NCBI RefSeq assembly: GCF_900105495.1
Contig: NZ_FNTF01000002.1
Location: 4,828,501 to 4,892,500, forward strand
Direction: 5' to 3'
Length of the DNA: 64,000 nt
Source of the DNA: Pseudomonas frederiksbergensis
Lineage (GTDB): Bacteria > Pseudomonadota > Gammaproteobacteria > Pseudomonadales > Pseudomonadaceae
Made by a program: the position numbers and the translations under genes. The notes beneath the pieces are model-generated. The model saw only the letters and a program-made list of their open reading frames with translations. It did not search any database and was not told where the DNA came from. Positions 1 through 12,330 of this stretch are shown one piece after another (within the stretch, counting starts at the first letter, position 1; each line of letters begins with the position of its first letter).

Positions 1-1483
1 CGAATACCGGCGTTTTGGCAATGGTCATCAGACCGTTGAGCGTCCAGTGCAAGGTGTCGCCGGTGGCGGCCATGCTGTCGCCCCCCTGCGGGGTGTCATA
101 CACCACACCGGTGGCCGCCGTACGCGCCGGCAACAGGCCAAGACCCGCGCCCAGGCCCAGCGGACTGTTCGTGCTGACAACCGCCGGAATACTGGCCAGC
201 GGCATGTTGTGACGGATGTTCAGGTCAGAACCGACGCTCACCCCGCCCACATCCTTGGACAGGCTCAAGCCAACGATCTTGATGTTGTCGGCATAGGCCA
301 TTTGATAGGTGGCGGTGCTCAGCGAGTTGAGCGTGTTGATCACCGCAGGCACTTGCCCGGCCGGCCGGGTGCCGTTGGGGTTGGCCGAACTCAGGCCTCT
401 GGCATCCAGCCAGGCTTGCGGCAGGATTTCCGAGGTTTCGCGGTAGTAAACGCCGAGGGTGCCATCCAGCCAGGCCGGCGACCACTTGGCCATAACGCCC
501 CAGTCACCGCGCTTGTCCGGTGTCAGGTCATGACCGCGACGCACATTGGTCAAGCCATTGCAGGGCGCCAGGCCACAACCCAGGGGGCTGCCCGGCACCA
601 CGCCATTGGTGTTGCCCAGCAGGAACGACTGCGCACCGAAACCGACCAGATCGGAACCACCATAGTAAGTACCGGCTTCAGGCAGGCGCGCAGCATCCCA
701 ATCGAGGAAATACTGGGCACCCACGGTCAACTCGGGATTGGCGGTGAACGACATCGACAACTGGTTACGCGGAACGAACAGTTCCTTGGCTTCGGTACCG
801 GGCGAGGCAGCCAGTTTGGCCAGGTCCAGGCCCGATTGGCCGTAACTGTTCGAGTGCACCGGGTTGAGAATGGTCTCGCCCCAGAACACGTTGTGCTGAC
901 CGGCCTTGACGCTCAGCAGTGACTCCTCGCCCACTTCGGTGCTGTAGAACACGAAGGCATCGAGGATTTCGCCGGACGGCCCGGTGTAGTAACGCTGGGC
1001 ATAGTTGCTCAAGTGCGGGCTGCCGTTGCCAACGTTGTCACCGGTGACGCCGGCCAGACGTGGATCGTTGGCGACCAGCCCCGACCTTGCGTCGTTGCCG
1101 TTGACGAACGGGTTGGAATTGGAACCGGTGTTTTCATAGGCCTTGTCATACCAACTGGCCGCACTGACACGAAAACCCATGTGGTTCTGGTAGACCACAT
1201 CCAGCTCGGTCAACAGGTCGACACGGTTGGTGATGTTGGTCCCGGCCTTGCGGAAGTTGTAGTCGCCGTCGTTGTTGTTCGGCGTTGCCAGCATGCGTTT
1301 GTCAGCGCTTTCGGTGCGTACGCCGTAGTTGTACTTCACGGTGTTATCAAGACGTACGGTCCAGTCCGGGTTACCTGTGTCGAGCTCGATCGCCTGCGCG
1401 ACCGGCACGGCTGCGGCCAGGATGGCCGAGGCCAACAAGGTGTAACGCGAGGGTGCGAACCCGTGACTCTTATTGTTGTGCAT
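1..1483 (-). CDS. DUF1302 family outer-membrane protein, partial
   Basis: Translating back from ATG at 1483 (GGCGGAG about 9 nt upstream) gives an open frame to the window edge, so the C-terminus is missing. It starts with a cleavable signal peptide (basic start, then a run of L/A/V ending near VAQA). Beta-barrel-like sequence follows, with the family's opening motif FRKAGTNITNRVDLLTELD and the segment KAGQHNVFWGETILNP. DUF1302 proteins are predicted outer-membrane proteins, usually encoded just before a DUF1329 protein; that partner would lie to the left of the window. They occur beside genes for uptake or degradation of hydrophobic compounds, but their biochemical role is not settled. It lies 127 bp after the hydrolase gene on the same strand, so the two may be cotranscribed. 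Confidence 0.85.
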   Translation of the reverse strand, partial: MHNNKSHGFAPSRYTLLASAILAAAVPVAQAIELDTGNPDWTVRLDNTVKYNYGVRTESADKRMLATPNNNDGDYNFRKAGTNITNRVDLLTELDVVYQNHMGFRVSAASWYDKAYENTGSNSNPFVNGNDARSGLVANDPRLAGVTGDNVGNGSPHLSNYAQRYYTGPSGEILDAFVFYSTEVGEESLLSVKAGQHNVFWGETILNPVHSNSYGQSGLDLAKLAASPGTEAKELFVPRNQLSMSFTANPELTVGAQYFLDWDAARLPEAGTYYGGSDLVGFGAQSFLLGNTNGVVPGSPLGCGLAPCNGLTNVRRGHDLTPDKRGDWGVMAKWSPAWLDGTLGVYYRETSEILPQAWLDARGLSSANPNGTRPAGQVPAVINTLNSLSTATYQMAYADNIKIVGLSLSKDVGGVSVGSDLNIRHNMPLASIPAVVSTNSPLGLGAGLGLLPARTAATGVVYDTPQGGDSMAATGDTLHWTLNGLMTIAKTPVF

Positions 1484-1610
1484 TGCGTTGTCTCCGCCTT
1501 TTTGTATTTGTTTTAAGCGCAGCCGCCCTCGCGCAACCCCTTGTTCCAGGGGTTTACGGTTTCAGGAATGAGGGCAAATGCCGGATGGCGCGGGCCAAAC
1601 GGCGCCTGAA

Positions 1611-2186
1611 CTAGCGATCCAGCTCGAGGATGAGGGCTTCGGCGTGTGGCCAGTGCCCATACCCGGCAGCAGGATTGAGGTGACCGACTTCGCCGAGGTT
1701 GAGCAGTTCGCTGCCCCAGCCGTCGGCCATGCGCGTGGCGGCATCCAGGCTGGCAAGGTGGTCGTTGGTACTGGCGGCCACCAGGCTGCGGAACGGCAAC
1801 CGGCCTTTGGGCAGAGGGTCCCAACCCTGGCTACGCAGGGTTTCAGCGGATGGGTAGCCCTGCGGCCACTGGGCATCGAGGTCCGGCGGAGCGGCCAGCA
1901 GCGCACCCTTGATCGGCCGACTGTGCTGCGCCGCCCAGTGCGCGACCATCAGCACACCCGCGCTGTGAGCGACCAGAATCACCGGCCCGTCGATCTGCTC
2001 CAGCGCGTGCTGGATCGCTTCGACCCGCTTGGCGCAATCGAGCTTGTCGGTGTCCAGCGGTGGCACACTGCGTACTTTGCACAGCCTGGCCTCCAGCAGC
2101 GTTTGCCAATGCTCGGCTACGTGCTCGCGCAGGCCCGGTACGATCAGAACGGTTGCTGCAGTTTGCAGTTTGTTCACTTTCAACAC
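1611..2186 (-). CDS. RBBP9/YdeN-type alpha/beta serine hydrolase
   Basis: The product has 191 residues, the usual size for the RBBP9/YdeN family of small serine hydrolases. The nucleophile elbow AHSAG places Ser75, with Asp142 in NDH and His169 in EVGHLNPAAG completing the likely triad; the family hallmark GHLN is present. No signal peptide is seen, so it should act in the cytoplasm on an unknown small ester or amide. The start is uncertain: GTG at 2186, or GTG at 2177, which has AAGG eight bases upstream. It is divergent from the AraC-type regulator and is preceded, 82 bp upstream, by the 40-bp element also found before the operon starting at 10313. This links it to that catabolic regulon. 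Confidence 0.85.
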   Translation of the reverse strand: MLKVNKLQTAATVLIVPGLREHVAEHWQTLLEARLCKVRSVPPLDTDKLDCAKRVEAIQHALEQIDGPVILVAHSAGVLMVAHWAAQHSRPIKGALLAAPPDLDAQWPQGYPSAETLRSQGWDPLPKGRLPFRSLVAASTNDHLASLDAATRMADGWGSELLNLGEVGHLNPAAGYGHWPHAEALILELDR

Positions 2187-2534
2187 CTTCGCTTTCTCGA
2201 TGACTCGACTGGCTCTGTTCGCCAGGGGCTTTTTGTAGGACTGACATTAAAGAGCGCCCGCCCGAAGCGCTTTTCATTAGACGTCAGGCACTTTTCTTTT
2301 CATGACAGATTTCCAGGTGTCGGGCACACAGCGACCATTGGTCGAATATCCCCACAGGTTCTCTACAGCTCACTGTAATCAAAGGGTGAGCGTCGATTGC
2401 TGGACAACGACGGTGTGATTTTGGACAGCATTGGGCGAACGCCCTCGACAACGTCACAACTGTTCAATCGTTGATGTGCTGGATATAGTCGCCACGCAAA
2501 TTTGAATCGCAACTGGCCCAGGAAAGACCTTCGC
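2187..2534. other. Divergent intergenic region, hydrolase/AraC regulator
   Basis: These 348 bp hold the promoters of the leftward hydrolase gene and the rightward regulator. The only element I can support is the 40-bp repeat at 2268-2307. I see no credible gene. Confidence 0.6.
2268..2307 (-). promoter_or_regulatory. Putative AraC-type operator, copy 1
   Basis: Read on the minus strand, this 40-bp block begins TGTCATGAAA and contains AAGAAAAG and ATGAAAAG starting 21 bp apart. Copy 2 at 10394-10433 matches it at about 32 of 40 positions with no gap. Direct repeats spaced by two helical turns are the usual layout of AraC-family binding sites. It lies 82 bp upstream of the hydrolase start, and an AraC-family gene is adjacent. 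Confidence 0.7.
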
Positions 2535-3587
2535 ATGCCCAAGCTTGTTCGCGCCGCCGTCTTGACCAACTACCTGGAGGTTACTCAATACCTGGGGTTC
2601 AACCCGCGCGATGTATTGGCCGGCGTCGGCTTGAGCAAAGCCAAGCTGCTAGCCCCTGAACATCGCATTCCCATCGATGCCGCCGTGCGTTTGCTGGAGG
2701 ATTCGGCCGTCGCCAGTGGCTGCCAGAGTTTCGGCCTGAGCATGGCCGAGTCGCGCCAGCTCTCGGACTTCGGCGTGGTCAGCCTGTTGCTCAGCCACCA
2801 GCGTACGCTGCGCGACACGTTGCAAGTGTTGGTGCACTACCGTCATTTGATGAACGATTCGCTGGCCCTCTTCATCGAGGAGGCGGGCAAGATGGTGATC
2901 ATTCGCGAAGAGGTGGTCACCGAATCGCCGATGCCCTGCCGACAAGCCAATGAACTGGCGATCGGGGTGATGTTCCGCCTGTGCGCCGCCCTGCTCGGCG
3001 CGCACTGGCAACCCTACAGCGTCAACTTCACGCACCAGCCTCCCGACAACCTGCAACTGCATCGCCGCCTGTTCGGTTGCAAACTGGAGTTCGGCAGCGA
3101 GTTCAATGGCATCGTCTGCCCCAATGCCAGCCTCGACATGACCAACCCCCATGCCGATCCGGCCATGGCGCGCTACGCCCAGAGCTACCTCGACTCACTG
3201 CTGCACCACGAAGGTCCGTCGATGCTGTTCGAGGTGCGCAAAGCCATTTACCTGTTGTTGCCGATGGGGCGCGCCACCATCGAGCAGATCGCCCAGACCC
3301 AGGGCATGAACGTACGCACCCTGCAACGTCGCCTCAAAGACGACGGCTGCGCCTTCAACGACCTGATCAACGACGTGCGCCGTGACCTGGTGTTGCGCTA
3401 CCTGGAAAACCCGAATTATTCGTTGGGCCGGATCGCCGACATGCTCGGCTACTCCATGGCGAGTTCCTTCACCCGCTGGTTCATCACCCAGTTCGGCATG
3501 CCGCCCGCCGCTTGGCGCAGCGCGCAAAAGCACACCGTCAAGGCACCGTCGGACCTGAGCCCCCTGCCCGGCCCCAGCGAACCCTGA
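2535..3587 (+). CDS. AraC-family transcriptional regulator (arabinose-binding-like N-terminus)
   Basis: The protein has 350 residues from ATG at 2535, chosen because AGGAAAG lies 8-9 nt upstream. The first ~200 residues look like the Arabinose_bd (PF12625-type) N-terminal domain found in OruR/ArgR-like AraC regulators (HRIPIDAAVRLLEDSA, ANELAIGVMFRLC). The last ~90 form the AraC double helix-turn-helix, with TIEQIAQTQGMNVRTLQRRL followed by SLGRIADMLGYSMASSFTRW. It is divergent from the hydrolase gene and upstream of the end of the 3915-10313 operon. The paired 40-bp elements at 2268 and 10394 are its most plausible targets, probably for activation in response to the pathway's substrate. That assignment is inferred from position and repeat layout. 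Confidence 0.9.
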   Translation: MPKLVRAAVLTNYLEVTQYLGFNPRDVLAGVGLSKAKLLAPEHRIPIDAAVRLLEDSAVASGCQSFGLSMAESRQLSDFGVVSLLLSHQRTLRDTLQVLVHYRHLMNDSLALFIEEAGKMVIIREEVVTESPMPCRQANELAIGVMFRLCAALLGAHWQPYSVNFTHQPPDNLQLHRRLFGCKLEFGSEFNGIVCPNASLDMTNPHADPAMARYAQSYLDSLLHHEGPSMLFEVRKAIYLLLPMGRATIEQIAQTQGMNVRTLQRRLKDDGCAFNDLINDVRRDLVLRYLENPNYSLGRIADMLGYSMASSFTRWFITQFGMPPAAWRSAQKHTVKAPSDLSPLPGPSEP

Positions 3588-3614
3588 ACCGGACGGAACA
3601 GACGCAGGACAGGC

Positions 3615-3652
3615 AAAAAAAAACGGCGACTGCTGGCACAGTCGCCGTAAAA
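3615..3652 (-). terminator. Intrinsic terminator of the minus-strand operon
   Basis: The stem ACGGCGACTG/CAGTCGCCGT (3623-3632 with 3639-3648) has a six-base loop. On the minus strand it is followed by a run of eight to nine T, and on the plus strand by no T run. It should therefore end the transcript that reads through the YeiH-type gene, not the AraC gene. Confidence 0.7.
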
Positions 3653-3732
3653 AGAACCGGTGTTTATGACACACCGGCCGAGGAGTTCCACTGCAATGTG
3701 GAGCGAGGTCCGGCTGTAGCAGCTGCGTTCGG

Positions 3733-3880
3733 CTGTAGCAGCTGTCGAGCCTGCGAGGCTGCGTTCGGCTGCGAAGCAGTCGTGAATCCGGCTGACACGT
3801 TTTGCCTGATGCACCGCAGGTTCTGGTTTTACGACTGCTTCGCAGCCGAACGCAGCCTCGCAGGCTCGACAGCTGCTACG
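3733..3880. repeat. Inverted pair of Pseudomonas REP-like elements
   Basis: The unit at 3733-3785 (core GTAGCAGCTGTCGAGCC followed by GCGAGGCTGCGTTCGGC) recurs in inverted orientation at 3831-3880. About 45 bp separate the copies. Just before it, 3712-3731 carries a partial tandem copy of the left end. Related copies occur at 63154-63299. This is the familiar intergenic REP/BIME type of Pseudomonas. With the terminator it accounts for the gene-free stretch 3588-3914. Confidence 0.85.
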
Positions 3881-3914
3881 GATCGCATTACCGCCGCCAA
3901 TATTTTTAACGGAC

Positions 3915-4925
3915 TTAGAGGCCCCAACGCAGCAACAGCAGCACCAGCACGACGAGGAACACCGTTTCCCCCACCATCAGCAGGATCGGTTTGATGCCCA
4001 CCGCCGCCAGCTCCTTGAGCTGGGTTTTCATGCCCAGGGCGCTGATGGAAACCACCAGGCACCAGCGCGACAGTTCATTGACCGACCCTTGCACCACCGG
4101 GGCCACCCAGCCGGTGCTGTTGATACAGGCCAGGATCAGAAACCCGACGGCGAACCAAGGCAGCAGCGGCGGCCGTTTTCCGGCCGGATCGGCACCTTGC
4201 ATGCGGGTGATCATGGCGGCACAGACGATCACCGGCAGCAGCATGGCAACCCGCATCAACTTGACCACCGTGGCCGTATCGCCGGTCTCGGTCGACATGC
4301 TGTAACCGGCACCGACCACCTGGGCGACATCGTGAATGGTCGCCCCCAGGAACACGCCCGCCACTTGTGGCGACAACGACAGCCAGTTGGCAATCATCGG
4401 GTACACGATCATCGCCAGGGTCGACAGCGCCGACACCCCGATCACCGTGAACAATGTCGCGCGTTCTTTCTGCGGATGATTGGGCAATGCCGCCGCCAGC
4501 GCCAATGCGGCCGATGCACCACAAATCGCGGTGGCGCCACCGGTGAGCATGCCGAACAAACGCTGGAAGCCCAGCGCCTTGGCTGCGATCACTGAAACGC
4601 CGATGGTCACCACCACCACAATCACCACCAGCGCCACAGGCTTCCAGCCCAGCGCGGCAATCTGTTCGAGCGTGATGCGCATGCCCAGCAGCGCCACGCC
4701 AATGCGCAACACGGTGCGTGCGGTGAACTCGATGCCAGCCTTGCAGGCACCGTCACCGGCCAGGAAGTTCAGCGCCATGCCCAGCAACAAAGCGAACAGC
4801 ATTACCGGCGCGCCGTAATGCTCGGACAAAAAGGACGCTGCGGCTGCAACGATCAGGCTAACGACAAAGCCTGGCGCCAGTTCGCGCGTTCGGCTGTGGA
4901 TACGGGTGAGAGCGATGGCGCTCAT
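3915..4925 (-). CDS. YeiH-family putative sulfate exporter (UPF0324/PF03601)
   Basis: The 336-residue protein has about ten hydrophobic segments and the family signatures GVALLGMRITLEQI, GGATAICGASAALAL, GATIHDVAQVVGAGYSMS and SALGMKTQLKEL. The start is ATG at 4925, which overlaps the stop of the Rieske gene (ATGA), indicating translational coupling. Members of PF03601 are annotated as putative sulfate exporters; biochemical proof is thin. As the last gene of the seven-gene operon, it may remove an anionic product such as sulfite or sulfate released during catabolism. That role is inferred from the family name and the presence of a TauD-type dioxygenase in the same operon. Confidence 0.85.
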   Translation of the reverse strand: MSAIALTRIHSRTRELAPGFVVSLIVAAAASFLSEHYGAPVMLFALLLGMALNFLAGDGACKAGIEFTARTVLRIGVALLGMRITLEQIAALGWKPVALVVIVVVVTIGVSVIAAKALGFQRLFGMLTGGATAICGASAALALAAALPNHPQKERATLFTVIGVSALSTLAMIVYPMIANWLSLSPQVAGVFLGATIHDVAQVVGAGYSMSTETGDTATVVKLMRVAMLLPVIVCAAMITRMQGADPAGKRPPLLPWFAVGFLILACINSTGWVAPVVQGSVNELSRWCLVVSISALGMKTQLKELAAVGIKPILLMVGETVFLVVLVLLLLRWGL

Positions 4926-5248
4926 GGCGCGGACTCCTCGGCAACGATAACGATGAATGCCTGGCCGTCGATGATCTCGACCGGATAATTGGCGACTTTG
5001 ACTGCGGTGGAATTGAGCAAGTAACCGCTGCGCAAATCGAAGCGCAGGCCATGGGCGCAGCATTGAATCACCCGCCCATCAAGGCGCCCGCCACACAGCG
5101 AGGCGCCCTGGTGCGGGCAACTGTCGTCGATGGCGAATACCTCACCTTCGACGTTGAATAACGCCAGGCTTTTGTCATCGAATTCGAACAGTGCACGACC
5201 GCCCGCCTGCGGGAGTTTTCCGGCAGGCACGGGGATACGCCGATTCAT
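4922..5248 (-). CDS. Small Rieske [2Fe-2S] ferredoxin-like protein
   Basis: The 108-residue protein carries a complete Rieske cluster-binding set: C44-P-H46 in SCPHQGASLCGG and C63-x-x-H66 in CCAHGLRFDLRSG. This matches the soluble Rieske ferredoxins (NirD/BphF-like) of about 100-110 residues. No membrane anchor is present, so it should be a cytoplasmic one-electron carrier. It overlaps both neighbours by 4 bp (dsbA-like upstream, YeiH-type downstream). No ring-hydroxylating oxygenase alpha subunit is present in the operon, so its redox partner is unknown. Confidence 0.9.
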   Translation of the reverse strand: MNRRIPVPAGKLPQAGGRALFEFDDKSLALFNVEGEVFAIDDSCPHQGASLCGGRLDGRVIQCCAHGLRFDLRSGYLLNSTAVKVANYPVEIIDGQAFIVIVAEESAP

Positions 5249-5910
5249 GCCGGTTGCCGCTCGTTATCACTTTCTTTCAGTGCCTGGCTCATGGCCCCGA
5301 GTAGCGCCTGGGCAGGTTGTGCCCCGATCACCGTCATGCGGCGGTCGAACTGAAAGCTCGGCACCCCACTGGTCGCGCCGGGCAAGCCTTCGAATGGCGT
5401 GGCGTCGCCCTTCAGGCAATCGAGCACCACGTCCGTATCGACGCCGCAGGCGCGGGCAATGGCGAGCAAGGTCTCGCGGCACCCGAGGTTTTCGCGTTTG
5501 CGGAAATAAGCGGCGAACAGCCGTTCAAGCAACATTTCACGCTGAGCAGCATTGCCCAGTACGCTGACGCGTTCGAACAAACGGTGGGCGTCGGCGGTGT
5601 TGGGCATCGTCTCGATACGGCTGAGGTCGATGGTCAGTCCAACCGCCGCAGCAGCCTGCTGTACCTGGGCCTGGCGCATGGTCATGGCGTCGGCATTGCC
5701 CAGACGTTTGCGATAGAAATCGGCGAAGGGTTCACCTTCTACCGGCAACTGAGGCAGCAACTGCACGCCATGCCACACCGTGGTGATCTGCACGTCCGGG
5801 TGGCGACTGCGAAACTGTACCTGCGCATGCTCCAGTTGACGCTTGCCGATCAGGCACCAGGGGCAGATGAAATCGAAGAACACATCAATACGTAAACGAC
5901 GACCACTCAC
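5245..5910 (-). CDS. DsbA-family oxidoreductase, FrnE-like
   Basis: The protein has 221 residues. An intact thioredoxin-fold active site C16-P-W-C19 follows an N-terminal beta strand (RIDVFFDFICPWCLIGKRQL), and the cis-Pro loop SGVPSFQF lies near residue 190, so it belongs to the DSBA-like/FrnE group (PF01323). There is no signal peptide, so it is cytoplasmic; FrnE-type proteins act in thiol-disulfide exchange, and relatives such as 2-hydroxychromene-2-carboxylate isomerase use glutathione. It overlaps the MFS gene before it and the Rieske gene after it by 4 bp each, showing tight coupling. Its role in the pathway is not evident. Confidence 0.88.
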   Translation of the reverse strand: MSGRRLRIDVFFDFICPWCLIGKRQLEHAQVQFRSRHPDVQITTVWHGVQLLPQLPVEGEPFADFYRKRLGNADAMTMRQAQVQQAAAAVGLTIDLSRIETMPNTADAHRLFERVSVLGNAAQREMLLERLFAAYFRKRENLGCRETLLAIARACGVDTDVVLDCLKGDATPFEGLPGATSGVPSFQFDRRMTVIGAQPAQALLGAMSQALKESDNERQPA

Positions 5911-7238
5911 AACTTCACCTCTAACACCGCTTTGCTAATCGAATCTCGGACTTGCTCGCCCTTAAGCCGGGCAATGTCCTTGTGGTAATGACACTTGGCA
6001 TAAAAGAACACCGCCGCCGCCGCGATGCTGACCAGTGGCACCAGCTGAAAAGCAGCCTGCAAGCCAATCAGGTCGGACACCCTGCCAGTGATGAACGGCC
6101 CAGGCGCGAGCCCCAGCATGTTGTTGGCCAGGGTCAACGTGGCGAAGGCCGTGCCGTGGACCGAGTAATGCGTCAGGTTGGCAACCATCGCTCCGCAGGG
6201 GCCGGTCGTGCCGGCGGCAATCAACATGCCCAGGCAGATCAGCAGCAATTGCCCAGGCCCCGCCGGCAGAGCGAACGCCGCCGACAACAACAGGCAACTG
6301 CCCAGGCAATAAGCGATGGCCAACGCCACTTTGCGCTCCGGCGAATGGCGACACAGTCGATCACTGAGCATGCCGCACAGGATCATCCCCGCCCCGCTGC
6401 ACAGCACGATGATTGCCGCGAGGCCACCTGCCTTGTCGGTGGCCATGTCGTAATAACGATTGAGGTAACTGGGCATCCACACAATCACGGTGCCGCCGAC
6501 GAACAGTTGCAAGCCACTGCCGATGTAGGCCGCGATCACCGAGCGGCTGGAAAACAGCGTACGCAACGGGCGCTTGACCGCGGCAGCTGCCTTGTTCGCC
6601 ACCTGAGCGGCACGTTGCGGCGCAATGCGTGCTTCCTTGACGATGATCGGATAAAGCACCGCCAGCAGCAGGCCGAACAGCGCCATGCCGGCAAACGACC
6701 ATCGCCAGCCAAGCTTGGCGGCGATTGCACCACCCAGCGCCATCCCTAACACCGAACCGAACATGCCACCCGCCATGAACGCACTGGCCAGGGTTGCCCG
6801 CATGTGTTTGGGAAATACCGAGATCACCACGGCGATGCCGACGCTGCCGTACGCCGCTTCACCGACGCCGACCATGAACCGTGCAATGAACATCTGCTGA
6901 TAGTCCTGCGCCAATGCGCAGCCCAGCGTCGCCAGGCTCCACAGCAAAGCCATCAGCGCCAGGCTTTTTACCCGGCCGAAGCGATCCGCCAGCAATGACA
7001 GGGGAATGGTCAGCAGCCCCACCATCAGGGCGACAATGCCACTGAGCAGGCCGAGCTGGCCGTCGCTCAGGGCCCATTCGCCCTTGAGCATCGGGAACAC
7101 CGCGTTCAGCACCTGACGTGACATGTAATCGGAAATCAACAGCCCGAACGTCAGTGCAAAGACGATCCAGGCGTACTTGCGCGCAACGCCGACGCCACTG
7201 CAGTCGTCATCGTCTGCAGCGATTGGGTGAAAGGCCAT
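5907..7238 (-). CDS. MFS transporter, probable anion/aromatic-acid symporter type
   Basis: The 443-residue protein has about twelve membrane segments and the MFS signature between TM2 and TM3 (LADRFGRVKSLALMALLWSL). The second half carries the equivalent loop LSDRLCRHSPERKVALAI. An N-terminal cytoplasmic stretch of about 20 residues precedes TM1. It resembles organic-anion and aromatic-acid:proton symporters, but the substrate cannot be read from sequence. It sits between the BKACE gene (92 bp gap) and the dsbA-like gene (4-bp overlap), and is the likely uptake system for the operon's growth substrate. Confidence 0.88.
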   Translation of the reverse strand: MAFHPIAADDDDCSGVGVARKYAWIVFALTFGLLISDYMSRQVLNAVFPMLKGEWALSDGQLGLLSGIVALMVGLLTIPLSLLADRFGRVKSLALMALLWSLATLGCALAQDYQQMFIARFMVGVGEAAYGSVGIAVVISVFPKHMRATLASAFMAGGMFGSVLGMALGGAIAAKLGWRWSFAGMALFGLLLAVLYPIIVKEARIAPQRAAQVANKAAAAVKRPLRTLFSSRSVIAAYIGSGLQLFVGGTVIVWMPSYLNRYYDMATDKAGGLAAIIVLCSGAGMILCGMLSDRLCRHSPERKVALAIAYCLGSCLLLSAAFALPAGPGQLLLICLGMLIAAGTTGPCGAMVANLTHYSVHGTAFATLTLANNMLGLAPGPFITGRVSDLIGLQAAFQLVPLVSIAAAAVFFYAKCHYHKDIARLKGEQVRDSISKAVLEVKL

Positions 7239-7330
7239 GCAGCCTCCTCAAAGCTTTGTTTTATTGTTGTTATCAAGCGTGTTGCAGTGCAGCGAGCGGG
7301 AGGCCATTGACCGCCCGCTTCGTCTGCCGA

Positions 7331-8383
7331 TCAGCCGCGTTGCGGCACACCTTTCTGCCCGGCCTTGCGGTTGGGGGCCATGCCATTGGCCAACAGGGTT
7401 TCTTCGATGCTTTGGTACTGCACACCGATGCGGTAGATCTCACGGGCTTCTTTACCCGTGGCGATTTCGCGACCCAGCTCATGAGCGATGCGCACGGTCT
7501 GCTTGATCTGCGCAACCGAGCCGAAACGATCGCCCTTGTGATCAATGATAGTGTCTTCATTGCCCACACGCGGGTGCATACCCATGGCCATCGACATGGT
7601 GTTGAACGGCATGACGTTTTTCAGCAGCGACTCGGAGGTCAGGGTGCAACCGTCTGGCGCGCGGTGGATGAAGTTGAAGAAGTTAAACGGATTGGGGCCA
7701 TCGAAACCGCCGCCGATACCGATCCAGGTCAGGTTCAACGGGCCCTTGTAGACGCCCCTGCGCACCAGACGCTCGAGGGTTTCCATGGCATGCATGCCCG
7801 TCAGCTGGAAGTGCGGCTGGATGCCGTTGTCCATCAGACGCTTGAGGTGCTCGGCGACCCAGGCCGGGCCTGCCGGAACGGTCATTTCGCTGTAGGCGGC
7901 CTGATACAGCGGATTGGCCAGGGACGTGCCTTCCAGGTATTCCGGATACAGCAGCTCCATGATGTTCATCTGGGTGGTGTTGATGGCCACCGTGACCTGA
8001 TCCGGTTTTGGCGTCAGCTCGGCCAGCATGTGCCGGGTATCGTCAGACAGCCACTTGGCGGCTTCGCCATCGCTTTCCGGCGCAAAGGAAATCGAGCCAC
8101 CGACCTGGATGATCATGTCCGGCACGGCTTCACGCACGCCGGCGATCAATTCGTTGAACTTGGACAGACGCTTGGAACCCTTGCCGTCCAATTCACGCAC
8201 GTGCAGGTGCAATACCGTTGCACCTGCCTCATAACACTCAACCGCCTTCTGCACCTGCTCATCCATGGTCAGCGGGATGTCTTCGGGGAAGTCTTCAGGC
8301 ATCCATTCCGGGCCGTACGGGGCCACGGTGATCACCACCTTTTCCATGTTTTCCGGGTGCAGGGAATCGTCGAAGAATTGCAT
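7331..8383 (-). CDS. BKACE family beta-keto acid cleavage enzyme (DUF849)
   Basis: The protein has 350 residues, slightly longer than the usual ~270-310. It shows the DUF849/BKACE TIM-barrel features: an opening VVITVAPYG strand, the metal-binding H59-L-H61 in TVLHLHVRELDG, and a glycine loop near WIGIGGGF. Characterised BKACEs (for example 3-keto-5-aminohexanoate cleavage enzyme and the 3-dehydrocarnitine enzyme CdhC) condense a beta-keto acid with acetyl-CoA to give acetoacetate and a new CoA ester. The acetoacetate formed could feed the divergent thiolase after CoA activation. The substrate here is unknown. No carnitine dehydrogenase is adjacent, so I do not call it cdhC. Confidence 0.85.
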   Translation of the reverse strand: MQFFDDSLHPENMEKVVITVAPYGPEWMPEDFPEDIPLTMDEQVQKAVECYEAGATVLHLHVRELDGKGSKRLSKFNELIAGVREAVPDMIIQVGGSISFAPESDGEAAKWLSDDTRHMLAELTPKPDQVTVAINTTQMNIMELLYPEYLEGTSLANPLYQAAYSEMTVPAGPAWVAEHLKRLMDNGIQPHFQLTGMHAMETLERLVRRGVYKGPLNLTWIGIGGGFDGPNPFNFFNFIHRAPDGCTLTSESLLKNVMPFNTMSMAMGMHPRVGNEDTIIDHKGDRFGSVAQIKQTVRIAHELGREIATGKEAREIYRIGVQYQSIEETLLANGMAPNRKAGQKGVPQRG

Positions 8384-8470
8384 GAGTTACTCCTGTTCTT
8401 ATGATTGTCGCGCCCACCCGGGATCGTGCCGGGCAGGCGTGTTTACGAGTGCGAATGCAGTTGCGGTCGA

Positions 8471-9318
8471 TCAGTAGGTCTTGTCGCCGATGATCCCGGC
8501 ACGCTCCATCTTGCGATGGCACGGCGGGTAATCCATGACGGCGTAATGCTGGGTGCTGCGGTTGTCCCAGATGGCGATGCTGTTGGGTTTCCAGCGCCAG
8601 CGCACCTGATACTCGGGGATGTAGGCCTGGCTGATCAGGTAGCGCAGCAACTCGCTCGCGCCAGGGTTGGCATCCTGGCCGAAGCGCACCCGCTCGGGGT
8701 GTGGTAGTTGCTCAAGTGCGTGGTGAAGGCGTTGACGAACAGCACCTTCTCCCCGGTTTCCGGGTGGGTACGCACCACCGGGTGCTCGGCATCCGGATAC
8801 ATCGCCTTGAGCGCCAGACGCTTTTCGATTGGCATGGCGGCACCGAAACTCGCTTCGATGCTGTGGCGGGCGCGCAGGTCGGCAATCTTCACCTTCACGT
8901 CCTCTGGCAAACGAGCGTAGGCCTCGACCATGTTGGCCCACATGGTGTCGCCGCCCACCGGAGGGCATTCCACGCAGCGCAGCACGCAGCCCATCGGCGG
9001 CGCCTCGCGCCAGGTCGCGTCGGTATGCCAGGCGTTTTCGTAGCGGTCCATCGGCTGGTCCGGGTTCTTGTAGATGCGCACCAGCCCGGGATGATCCGGA
9101 TCACTGCCAGCCACCGGATGGTCCTCCAACTCACCGAAGCGGCGGGCGAAAGCCACGTGCTCGGCACGAGTGATGTCCTGATCGCGCAGGAACACCACTC
9201 GATGCTTGAGCAACTGAGCACGAATCTCGGCAAAAAGACCGTCGTCATGCACCGCGTCGGCGAGGTTGACGCCGATCAGTTCGGCGCCAATGCTGCAGGT
9301 CAATTGTTCGACTTTCAT
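8471..9318 (-). pseudogene. TauD/TfdA-family 2-oxoglutarate dioxygenase, frameshifted
   Basis: Two overlapping frames encode one dioxygenase. The first, from ATG 9318 (GGGAG nine bases upstream), carries the iron ligands H98 and D100 in ENAWHTDATW and runs normally to LSNYHTP near position 8700. The homologous sequence then continues one frame over, ERVRFGQDANPGASELLRYL, to a natural stop at 8471. That second part holds the distal His (STQHYAVMDY) and the 2-oxoglutarate-binding Arg (CHRKMERAG). The break falls at a run of four C; a fifth C would restore H-T-P-E-R-V-R. As it stands, the product ends in an out-of-frame tail and lacks essential residues. It is either a recent one-base deletion or a sequencing error. 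The gene lies between qor and BKACE in the operon. Confidence 0.85.
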
Positions 9319-9332
9319 GGCGGACAACTCCC

Positions 9333-10313
9333 TTAAATGACGAAAATCGAAGAGCCCGTGGTTTTGCGTGATTCCAGGTCGCGATGGGCCTGCACGGCAT
9401 CCTGCAAAGCATAGTGCTGGTTGATCTCGATCTTGATCCGACCGCTACCAACGTGGTCGAACAATTCGCCAGCCAGGGCGGCTTTTTCCGCGGGGTCGGA
9501 AATGTAATCGGCCAGGGCCGGACGCGTCATGAACAGCGAGCCTTTCATCGCCAGCATTACCGGGTCGAAGGCCGGGATCGGACCGGATGCCGTGCCGACG
9601 CACACCATCAGGCCACGACGCTTGAGCGAATCCAGCGAACCCATGAAGGTGTTCTTGCCGACGCTGTCGAACACCACGTTGACCCCCACGCCATCAGTCA
9701 ACTCGCGCACGCGCTGGGCGACATCTTCGTGGCTGTAATTGATGACATGGTCGCAGCCATGGGCCAGGGCAATTTCACCCTTGACCGCGGTGGACACGGT
9801 GCCGATGACGGTCAGGCCGAGCAGCTTGGCCCATTGCGAAACGATCAGGCCCACGCCACCGGCAGCGGCGTGCAGCAGAATGCTGTCGCCGGCCTTGAAA
9901 TCGTAAATGCGCCGCATCAGGTACGACGACGTCAGGCCGCGCATGGTCATGGCGGCGGCGGTCTCGAAACTGATGGTTTCCGGCAGTTTGATCAACGGCG
10001 CGGCCGGGATCAGGCGTTCGGTGCTGTAGGCCCCCAAGGTGTTGAGAAAACCGGTGTAGGTGACGCGATCGCCTACACGGACATTGGTAACCCCCTCGCC
10101 GATGGCCTGGACCACACCGGACGCTTCAACCCCCATGCCGTTGGGCATCGGGATCGGGTAAGTGCCGTTGCGAAAGTAGGTGTCGGCATAGTTCAGGCCG
10201 ACCGCCACATGACGAAGACGAACCTGGCCTGGACCGGGGTCGCCAACTTCGACCTCCTCATAGCGGAGGACTTCGGGACCACCGGTTTCGTAGAAGCGTA
10301 CGGCTTTGGCCAT
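9333..10313 (-). CDS. Quinone oxidoreductase, zinc-independent MDR family
   Basis: The 326-residue protein begins at ATG 10313 (GGAGAATAAG upstream). It has the GroES-like N-terminal half of medium-chain reductases (VGLNYADTYFRNGTYP, GMGVEASGVVQAIGEGV), then a Rossmann domain with the quinone-oxidoreductase signature ILLHAAAGGVGLIVSQWAKL. The catalytic zinc ligands of alcohol dehydrogenases are absent, as is typical for QOR. It should reduce an enone or quinone with NADPH in the cytoplasm. It is the first gene of the leftward operon, with the 40-bp AraC-type element 81 bp upstream of its start, and is followed by the dioxygenase after 14 bp. Confidence 0.9.
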   Translation of the reverse strand: MAKAVRFYETGGPEVLRYEEVEVGDPGPGQVRLRHVAVGLNYADTYFRNGTYPIPMPNGMGVEASGVVQAIGEGVTNVRVGDRVTYTGFLNTLGAYSTERLIPAAPLIKLPETISFETAAAMTMRGLTSSYLMRRIYDFKAGDSILLHAAAGGVGLIVSQWAKLLGLTVIGTVSTAVKGEIALAHGCDHVINYSHEDVAQRVRELTDGVGVNVVFDSVGKNTFMGSLDSLKRRGLMVCVGTASGPIPAFDPVMLAMKGSLFMTRPALADYISDPAEKAALAGELFDHVGSGRIKIEINQHYALQDAVQAHRDLESRKTTGSSIFVI

Positions 10314-10393
10314 TTTTCTTATTCTCCAATCTGCAAGATGGGCGTGCTGCGTCGAATTGCGCTGATTGGACTGTAGGACGACGTCTGCAGGGT

Positions 10394-10433
10394 CGCTTCT
10401 CATCAGACGACAATGGCTTTTCATTTCATGACA
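10394..10433 (-). promoter_or_regulatory. Putative AraC-type operator, copy 2
   Basis: On the minus strand the block begins TGTCATGAAA, then has ATGAAAAG and ATGAGAAG starting exactly 21 bp apart, the same positions as in copy 1 at 2268-2307. It lies 81 bp upstream of the qor start, against 82 bp for copy 1 and the hydrolase start. Confidence 0.7.
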
Positions 10434-10569
10434 ACCGGGTGGTTGTACAAGATCCCGGGAACCAGAAAGCCTTGGCCATTGGGAGAGTGAGTGAACAGCT
10501 TACGGACCACGAAGAGATCAAAAAGCGACTTCAACTGAAATGGCCAAAAACGCCACCCCCCTTGAGCAG

Positions 10570-10587
10570 TTTTGGCATAGGCCAAAA
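10570..10587. promoter_or_regulatory. Palindrome upstream of thiolase
   Basis: TTTTGGC and GCCAAAA form a perfect dyad around ATAG, 79 bp upstream of the thiolase start, and a further GGCCAAAA half-site lies at 10542-10549. No T run follows, so an operator is more likely than a terminator. The binding protein is unknown. Confidence 0.4.
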
Positions 10588-10665
10588 TCATCACGGTGTC
10601 TAGACTCACTCCAAATAACAGTGCAAAAGCACACTTGAATCCAGGACTGTTCCAGGGGAACCCGC

Positions 10666-11850
10666 ATGAACCCATCCGACATTTTTGTCATCAGCGCCGT
10701 CCGCTCCGCTATCGGCAGCTTTGGCGGTTCGCTCAAAGATGTGCCGCCCATTCAATTGGCGACTGATGTTTGCCGCGCCGCCATTGAACGTTCGGGGCTG
10801 GCGCCTGAACACATCGGTCACGTGGTGATGGGGCATGTGATCCCGACGGAAGCACGTGATGCCTACATCTCTCGTGCCGTGGCGATGAATGCCGGCCTGC
10901 CGAAAGAGACGCCCGCCTTCAACGTCAACCGCCTCTGCGGTTCTGGTTTGCAGGCCATTGTCAGTGCCGCTCAAAGTTTGATGCTCGGGGATGCCGGGGC
11001 TGCGCTGGCGGGTGGCGTCGAATCCATGAGCCGCGGGACTTATCTGTTGCCGCAGGCGCGCTGGGGCGCACGCATGGGCGATATGCAAGCCATCGACTAC
11101 GTGCTCGGCGTTCTGCAAGACCCGTTTGGCGGTTTCCATATGGGCATTACTGCGGAAAACATCGCCGAGCGCTATGGCATCACTCGTCAGGCTCAGGATG
11201 AGTTGGCGCTGCTCAGCCAGCAACGAGCGGCCCGGGCGATTGCCGAAGGGCGATTTACCGACCAGATCGTGCCGATCGAAGTGGCATCGCGCAAAGGCAC
11301 CGTGACGTTTGCGACGGACGAGCATGTGCGCGCCGAGGTCAATGCCGAGCAATTGGGCAAGATGAAGCCGGCCTTCAAAAAAGATGGCAGCGTCACCGCC
11401 GGCAACGCGTCCGGCCTCAACGATGGTGCCGGTGCATTGATCCTGGCCACGGGTCAGATGGTTCTCGACCAAGGCCTCAAGCCCATCGCCCGACTGGTCG
11501 GCTATGCCCATGCCGGCGTGGAACCCGAGCTGATGGGGTTGGGACCGATTCCCGCCACCCGTCTGGTCCTCAAACGCGCCGGCCTGTCCGTTGCCGACCT
11601 GGATGTCATCGAATCCAACGAAGCATTCGCGGCCCAGGCGTGTGCCGTGGCGCAGGAGCTGGGCTTCGACCCGGAGAAGGTCAACCCGAACGGTTCGGGG
11701 ATTTCTCTGGGCCACCCGGTGGGCGCGACCGGTGCGATTATCGCCACCAAGGCGATTCATGAACTGCAGCGTGTTCAGGGTCGTTATGCCCTGGCAACCA
11801 TGTGCATCGGCGGCGGCCAAGGCATCGCCGTGTTGTTCGAACGCGTCTGA
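10666..11850 (+). CDS. Acetyl-CoA C-acetyltransferase / beta-ketothiolase
   Basis: The 394-residue protein matches the thiolase family length. It has nucleophilic C91 in NRLCGSGLQA, the NEAFAAQA loop, H350 in GHPVGATGA and the acid/base C380 in CIGGGQG. It would cleave acetoacetyl-CoA or another 3-ketoacyl-CoA to acetyl-CoA, or run in reverse. It is transcribed divergently from the catabolic operon and ends at a strong terminator, so it is monocistronic. Its position suggests it handles the acetoacetate produced by the BKACE enzyme. No CoA-transferase or ligase for acetoacetate is visible nearby. Confidence 0.92.
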   Translation: MNPSDIFVISAVRSAIGSFGGSLKDVPPIQLATDVCRAAIERSGLAPEHIGHVVMGHVIPTEARDAYISRAVAMNAGLPKETPAFNVNRLCGSGLQAIVSAAQSLMLGDAGAALAGGVESMSRGTYLLPQARWGARMGDMQAIDYVLGVLQDPFGGFHMGITAENIAERYGITRQAQDELALLSQQRAARAIAEGRFTDQIVPIEVASRKGTVTFATDEHVRAEVNAEQLGKMKPAFKKDGSVTAGNASGLNDGAGALILATGQMVLDQGLKPIARLVGYAHAGVEPELMGLGPIPATRLVLKRAGLSVADLDVIESNEAFAAQACAVAQELGFDPEKVNPNGSGISLGHPVGATGAIIATKAIHELQRVQGRYALATMCIGGGQGIAVLFERV

Positions 11851-11864
11851 TCGACCCAAACGAA

Positions 11865-11896
11865 GGCGGCGCCGATTATGGCGCCGCCTCGTTTTA
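11865..11896 (+). terminator. Intrinsic terminator after thiolase
   Basis: A perfect nine-base stem GGCGGCGCC/GGCGCCGCC with a six-base loop is followed shortly by TTTT. It begins 14 bp after the thiolase stop. Confidence 0.85.
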
Positions 11897-12330
11897 GTGC
11901 GATGGAATCAGTGCGCAATGCACGCAGATTCCAGCTCGGTGCAAGCCTCGAATACTGCACGACCCCACTCGAACTCCCTCCCCGATTGATTGCAAGGCGG
12001 ACAACAGCACGCTGGCGAATTATCAGCCTTGGCGCGCTGACGACATGGCGGTATTTGCGCAAAAAACATGTTCTACCTCCCCGGCACCCGCGCCGAACTG
12101 ATCAAGCAAATGCGTGCGCAAGGTTCTACTAAACTACGCAGAACCAAGCAGTTCCAGTGAATGATTTCACAGCACTGCTAAAGTGATAGCACGCGCCCCC
12201 ACATGCCCCCAACGCTTGTCATTTTCGAAGGTGGGTGGCTGATCACGGTGACGCCAATGCTCTCAAGCGAGGGCTGCATGAACTGAATCGCGTCATCGAG
12301 CGCGAGGGGCAGCAGACATGAGGTCTAAAT
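11897..12330. other. Gene-free stretch before the EPS locus
   Basis: About 430 bp with no gene I can support. Short coding-like pieces are present, for example a reading frame ending at 12321 (GLHELNRVIEREGQQT then stop) and another ending at 12160. None has a start, a ribosome site and a recognisable family together. The region presumably carries the promoter of the initiating glycosyltransferase gene. Confidence 0.5.

Follow-up and report, generated by a model that had tools for sequence, protein, structure and literature searches.

We describe two similar 40-bp blocks, S1 (2268-2307) and S2 (10394-10433), in a 64,000-nucleotide stretch of the Pseudomonas frederiksbergensis genome (contig NZ_FNTF01000002.1, positions 4,828,501 to 4,892,500; hereafter, the window). 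Each block precedes a minus-strand gene unit, and a gene for an uncharacterised AraC-family regulator of 350 amino acids (2535-3587, plus strand) lies between the units. The sequence comparisons make it very likely that S1 and S2 are operators of this AraC-family protein, which would activate both units. The regulator and the operator type are of an ordinary, classical kind. A single regulator thereby very probably turns on a degradation pathway about which little is known and from which sulfite seems to be released.

Read on the minus strand, S1 and S2 are identical without gaps at 32 of 40 positions, as the initial annotation had estimated. Each putative operator is composed of two tandem 17-bp half-sites, distal and proximal. 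They occupy 2291-2307 and 2270-2286 in S1, which faces a hydrolase gene, and 10417-10433 and 10396-10412 in S2, which faces a quinone oxidoreductase (QOR) gene. The half-sites are TGTCATGAAAAGAAAAG / TGACGTCTAATGAAAAG and TGTCATGAAATGAAAAG / TGTCGTCTGATGAGAAG, one pair per block; within a block they form a direct repeat with 12 of 17 identical positions, starts 21 bp apart, and a 4-bp gap. The initial annotation had described two GAAAAG-type boxes 21 bp apart. The boxes and their spacing are present, but the boxes are too short, since the real half-sites span 17 bp, and the proximal box of S2 is GAGAAG. Likewise, the proposed distance of 81-82 bp to the start codons holds for S1 (81 bp to the hydrolase GTG at 2186, by coordinates) and is slightly too long for S2 (80 bp to the QOR ATG at 10313). 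A chance origin of the pair was ruled out because every other match to either block within the window differs at no fewer than 15 of the 40 positions. Profile scores of 0 or above were absent from a mononucleotide shuffle of 80 related loci, against 144 in the window and these loci, 141 of them at 40 or above.

The element is also rare in the genome. Two tandem TGWCRTSWRAWGARAAG halves with up to three mismatches occur only at S1 and S2 in the whole 6.39 Mb, and a looser pattern added a single place (G000:C2:4798703-4798740, G000 being the source genome), about 32 kb to the left of S1 and outside the window. This third site precedes a class II polyhydroxyalkanoate (PHA) synthase gene located approximately 130 bp downstream. 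The initial annotation had named the occurrence of the motif at many unrelated loci as an argument against an operator; with two copies, or three with the looser pattern, a dispersed repeat was ruled out. A reversed-pattern control gave no match in any of 398 Pseudomonas genomes. A known RNA element was ruled out as well, as the Rfam scan of positions 1-12000 at the gathering threshold returned no match.

The conservation of the blocks was assessed in the 80 loci, which surround AraC relatives in named Pseudomonas genomes. An S1-type site stands upstream of the hydrolase gene in 72/72 loci where this gene was found (it was not found in 8), and an S2-type site stands upstream of the QOR gene in 65/65 loci with the gene and at least 170 bp of upstream sequence (no QOR gene was found in 13, and the sequence of 2 others was too short). 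The distance from the 38-bp core to the start codon ranges from 74 to 83 bp for the hydrolase and from 72 to 84 bp for the QOR. Duplicate contexts were dropped, which reduced the S1 set from 75 to 74 and the S2 set from 65 to 64. Averaged over positions, the commonest base has a frequency of 0.95 in the S1 motif and 0.97 in the S2 motif, compared with 0.58 and 0.39, respectively, in the 60 bp upstream of the motif. The claim that one element precedes both minus-strand units is thus borne out in the relatives.

We also carried out the search that the initial annotation had suggested, for co-occurrence of the motif with the AraC gene in Pseudomonas genomes. The motif was called with up to two mismatches and the AraC protein at E ≤1e-90 in the 398 genomes. 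As a result, the motif was found in 84 genomes and the AraC protein in 79; all AraC-encoding genomes carry the motif (79/79), against 5/319 genomes without a detected AraC protein (Fisher p = 4.6e-78, uncorrected for descent). The five motif-only genomes comprise four deletion remnants and one genome (G390) in which the cluster is present and the AraC gene matched in two frames. In G301 (locus L117), the site and QOR residues 1-72 abut acyl-CoA synthetase residues 467-547, an arrangement that, by its sequence, is the scar of a deleted cluster. G135 (L116) retains the site, the QOR gene, and TauD residues 1-112. Homology to the intact locus ends 17 bp past the site in G228 (L115) and at the last base of the site in G108 (L118). 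In L115-L118, the cluster deletions spared operator S2, with homology ending within 17 bp of it in two of the genomes.

The sites change together with the regulator in paralogous clusters. In an order-wide draw of 293 genomes, five had an AraC match at E ≤1e-80, one of them the source genome and another G581, described below; the remaining three, which belong to a different genus of this family (AraC identity 65-68%), have sites before both the QOR and the hydrolase genes. In clusters with an AraC protein of 64-67% identity (L195, L196, and L198), 5/6 proximal halves have ACG or ATG as their last three bases. In clusters with 52-53% identity (L127, L197, and L199), the half-sites begin with TGGCA or TGACA, and the variant sites precede the gene for a beta-keto acid cleavage enzyme (BKACE) in 3/3 clusters and the YeiH gene in two. 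This parallel change of the two sites within a cluster is the strongest argument that both would be read by one protein. The recognition helix differs as well: Ser is replaced by Asn in the 64-67% group, whose sites have A[CT]G ends, and Arg by Glu in the 52-53% group, whose sites are of the TGGC type. Each change is seen in three sequences and is confounded by descent, and the parallel with the site variants is suggestive only. Genome G208 encodes four AraC relatives of this group, with 94, 77, 66, and 52% identity; the clusters of the 66% and 52% kinds that we examined each have their own variant site pairs. Taken together, the rarity, placement, co-occurrence, and altered site pairs support the proposal of the initial annotation that AraC-type direct repeats join both units in one regulon.

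The AraC protein combines an N-terminal PF12625 domain with an HTH_18 domain. Its C-terminal double helix-turn-helix matches PF12833 with 60.5 bits (cut-off 33.6), and its closest solved chain is VirS (8rcx, E 1.6e-30, residues 3-329). Its gene is transcribed away from the left unit and towards the right one. By sequence, the system has the features of the AraC/XylS family, namely the double helix-turn-helix domain and tandem half-sites of approximately 17 bp, 21 bp apart, at or near the predicted -35. A -10-like hexamer, TTTAAT (2246-2251, minus strand), lies 18 bp downstream of the S1 core and is conserved across the 74 unique contexts; its counterpart, TACAGT (10370-10375, minus strand), lies 20 bp downstream of the S2 core and is conserved across the 64 unique contexts. 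A -35 hexamer at normal spacing, placed from the conserved -10-like hexamer, would overlap the end of the proximal half-site. Activation is predicted because AraC-type activators use such a position. A sigma-70 scan of 2150-10700 found 0 promoters, against 2.1 in shuffles, and carries little weight.

The comparisons establish the sites, how well they are conserved, their co-occurrence with the AraC gene, and the altered forms in paralogous clusters; binding, a dimer, activation, and an inducer are inferred. Each 17-bp half-site would take one monomer of an AraC-family dimer, with the proximal half-site at the -35 position and the -10-like hexamer 18-20 bp further on. The inducer-bound protein would activate the left unit, hydrolase-DUF1302-DUF1329-YCF48-RND-acyl-CoA dehydrogenase-acyl-CoA synthetase, and the right unit, QOR-TauD-BKACE-MFS-DsbA-Rieske-YeiH. 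The weaker third site probably adds the class II PHA synthase about 32 kb away.

Escherichia coli AraC reads 17-bp direct-repeat half-sites at araI1-I2, 21 bp apart and with the proximal half near -35. The regulator described here resembles it in half-site length, in the 21-bp period, and in a proximal half near the predicted -35, but has another N-terminal domain (PF12625), another sequence to read, and two operons. Within the genus, GliR (PA3027) of P. aeruginosa is reported to be an AraC-type protein with a tandem helix-turn-helix, encoded divergently from its target operon, whose motif overlaps -35 (PMC8151288). The motifs given there, YYGGCGHTDTYSGMC and GGAYAWCGCCG, are unlike the motif of this regulon. 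The AraC protein scored 130 bits against the GliR model NF050186 (cut-off 570) and 194 bits against its best NCBIfam model, QhpR (NF049968, cut-off 250), in both cases below the score required of an equivalog.

Further sites were taken as a selection from 40 regions among the matches listed, with up to three mismatches. Among those listed, the 40 loci held 51 sites, comprising 18 before hydrolase or QOR genes, 2 relics, and 31 others. The other sites precede further pathway genes (8), PHA synthases (8), a PAS-MCP chemoreceptor gene (6), and a molybdopterin oxidoreductase gene (3); the other 6 are unassigned. The eight pathway genes are DUF1329 (three times), DUF1302, acyl-CoA synthetase, MFS, TauD, and a BKACE paralog; each of these can have a site upstream where it heads its own unit in other genomes. 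The PHA synthase, chemoreceptor, and oxidoreductase groups (17 sites) were defined only after being seen. The regulon seems to be larger than the initial annotation proposed, with members elsewhere.

The molybdopterin oxidoreductase is SorA (NF052245, 657 bits, cut-off 600). Its closest solved chain is a sulfite:cytochrome c oxidoreductase, and a SorB gene adjoins it in G204. A SorA match at E ≤1e-150 was present in 18/249 genomes, 16 of them at ≥86% identity (one partial, in G070, with the weakest site). A site within 250 bp in the right orientation precedes SorA of ≥86% identity in 13 of 14 AraC-encoding genomes, G015 being the sole exception, against 0/2 genomes without AraC; without G204 and G137, where the gene was reached via the site, the count is 11/12. 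Two SorA genes of 64-65% identity, the source genome's own included, have no site. For the extra PHA synthase beside the third site, orthologs of ≥86% identity were found in 5/249 genomes, all five AraC-encoding and with the motif upstream (3/3 without G000 and G208). The 25 other loci among the 30 PhaC loci scanned, drawn from 222 genomes with a PhaC match, had no upstream motif. A gene for a PAS-MCP (Aer-like) chemoreceptor is found under or next to a site in L128, L131, L140, L144, L145, and L148; the chemoreceptor sites suggest that taxis is linked to the pathway.

Some observations weigh against the reading of S1 and S2 as operators of the adjacent AraC protein. The genomes are related, so the Fisher value overstates their independence. 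In L066, L067, and L068 (AraC identity 76-77%), the motif is absent. G581, from another family (AraC identity 52%), has no other cluster genes in the 11 kb examined and one weak site (score 3). The BKACE sites of the 52-53% clusters have low core-profile scores (-1 to -19), and the third site ends in TAATG instead of AAG. Moreover, some genomes encode related regulators that have similar sites, and part of the further sites may belong to these. As a separate observation, L066-L068 hold other TGTCC...AAG repeats at 21-bp spacing near the MFS gene (e.g., L066 13327, minus strand), which are possibly the sites of a second AraC protein (37%) there.

Two other explanations of the blocks were considered. 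The sites could be operators for a different member of the regulator subfamily, with its gene elsewhere and the adjacent AraC gene as a bystander. Each genome has many AraC-like candidates (35 at first look in the source genome), and paralogous clusters use similar sites; however, the motif is present in 79/79 AraC-encoding genomes and in 5/319 without a detected AraC, all five of them remnants or a broken frame, and the altered site pairs go with the local AraC gene. We therefore regard a distant regulator as improbable. That the blocks belong to a conserved repeat or RNA leader, and are not protein operators, is more improbable still, to the point of being hardly credible. REP-like repeats lie nearby and transcription probably starts not far from the blocks, but there are two or three copies per genome and not many, Rfam gave no match in 1-12000, and a 21-bp direct repeat with conserved halves and a variable spacer fits DNA binding.

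Regarding the gene content, the left unit begins with a serine hydrolase gene (1611-2186, minus strand, PF06821), followed by a gene for a DUF1302 outer-membrane-type protein (1-1483, minus strand) that extends past the window edge. The extended locus (L084) has five more genes on the minus strand after DUF1302 than are visible in the window, encoding DUF1329, YCF48-like, MMPL/HAE3 RND, acyl-CoA dehydrogenase, and acyl-CoA synthetase proteins. The right unit, all on the minus strand, encodes in this order the NADPH:quinone oxidoreductase-like QOR (9333-10313), a TauD-family dioxygenase (8471-9318), BKACE (7331-8383, PF05853), an MFS transporter (5907-7238), a DsbA-like thioredoxin-fold protein (5245-5910), a Rieske [2Fe-2S] ferredoxin (4922-5248), and a YeiH-type membrane protein (3915-4925, PF03601; under the cut-off of TIGR00698, putative sulfate exporter). 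The TauD frame is interrupted in this assembly, with a change between the minus-strand open reading frames (ORFs) 9327-8635 and 8968-8471. In 71/73 relatives with a match, the frame is open for at least 283 amino acids; the interruption could reflect either a genuine pseudogene or a mistake in the assembly. REP-like inverted repeats lie at 3700-3890, between the 3' ends of the AraC and YeiH genes, and a terminator-like hairpin at 3623-3648 adjoins them. A BktB-like thiolase gene (10666-11850) starts divergently beside S2. It was not supported as an extra S2 target, as no match at E 1e-15 was found among simply called ORFs of the 80 related loci, some of which stop short of that position.

The function of the pathway was approached through these genes. 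An intact TauD ortholog from another genome (L129:5048-5896) can be aligned over its full length with the solved chain 5vn6, 'Taurine dioxygenase', and with the taurine dioxygenases 3pvj and 1gqw; TauD relatives that act on other substrates reach comparable scores. The presence under one operator of TauD, a putative exporter of the YeiH type, and, in many species, SorA is suggestive of sulfite release. The gene set resembles taurine or sulfonate use by TauD with sulfite removal by SorAB in its TauD-family dioxygenase, its putative sulfate exporter, and SorA under the same operator elsewhere. It differs in the added BKACE, acyl-CoA genes, and Ame-like cassette, and no tauABC transporter is among the genes identified in the two units. 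Our tentative first choice of substrate is an organosulfonate or a different sulfur compound from which sulfite is formed. An organosulfonate would perhaps be lipophilic, which was considered because of the Ame-like cassette and the acyl-CoA genes. The left unit shares the gene order DUF1302, DUF1329, YCF48/COG4447-like, and HAE3-type RND with AmeABCD of Castellaniella defragrans, which has been linked to monoterpene metabolism and tolerance (PMC6394551); the comparison covers gene make-up and order. Unlike AmeABCD, the cassette sits with the hydrolase, acyl-CoA dehydrogenase, and acyl-CoA synthetase genes, and its RND gene scored 132.6 bits against the HAE3 model TIGR00921, under the cut-off of 351.9.

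The same make-up, tied to monoterpene metabolism in Castellaniella (PMC6394551), also favors the main rival on function, in which the same operators control the degradation of a sulfur-free lipophilic compound (a terpenoid or fatty-acid derivative) and SorA and YeiH have side roles. The acyl-CoA synthetase, acyl-CoA dehydrogenase, and PHA synthase suit a carbon chain, and TauD relatives in PDB also act, by entry names, on ethers and sulfate esters. Conversely, sulfite release is the better fit for SorA, above its family cut-off and with a site in 13/14 AraC-encoding genomes, and for the place of YeiH in the core unit. We consider a sulfur-free substrate a real, if tentative, possibility, and the two ideas are not mutually exclusive. 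In a broader and somewhat more doubtful picture, the AraC protein would serve as master activator of a regulon for organosulfonate degradation, present in Pseudomonas and a neighbouring genus, and would join MFS uptake, C-S cleavage by TauD, sulfite disposal by YeiH and, in many species, SorAB, an AmeABCD-like exporter for an apolar intermediate, chain breakdown by acyl-CoA synthetase/dehydrogenase and BKACE, carbon storage by an extra PHA synthase, and chemotaxis through the PAS chemoreceptor, in several insulated paralogous systems, with up to four AraC copies per genome and each with its own site variant. Our literature search found no description of this regulon, and the available part of PMC8079746 holds nothing on this cluster.

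For an uncharacterised AraC protein, the 38-bp core provides a sharp signature of its regulon throughout Pseudomonas. This signature points to SorA, PHA synthase, and chemoreceptor genes, which constrain the role of the pathway, and growth and induction assays with a few candidate compounds could now put the catabolic pathway to the test. The paralogous clusters with their own site pairs form a natural series for the joint change in specificity of a regulator and its two operators.

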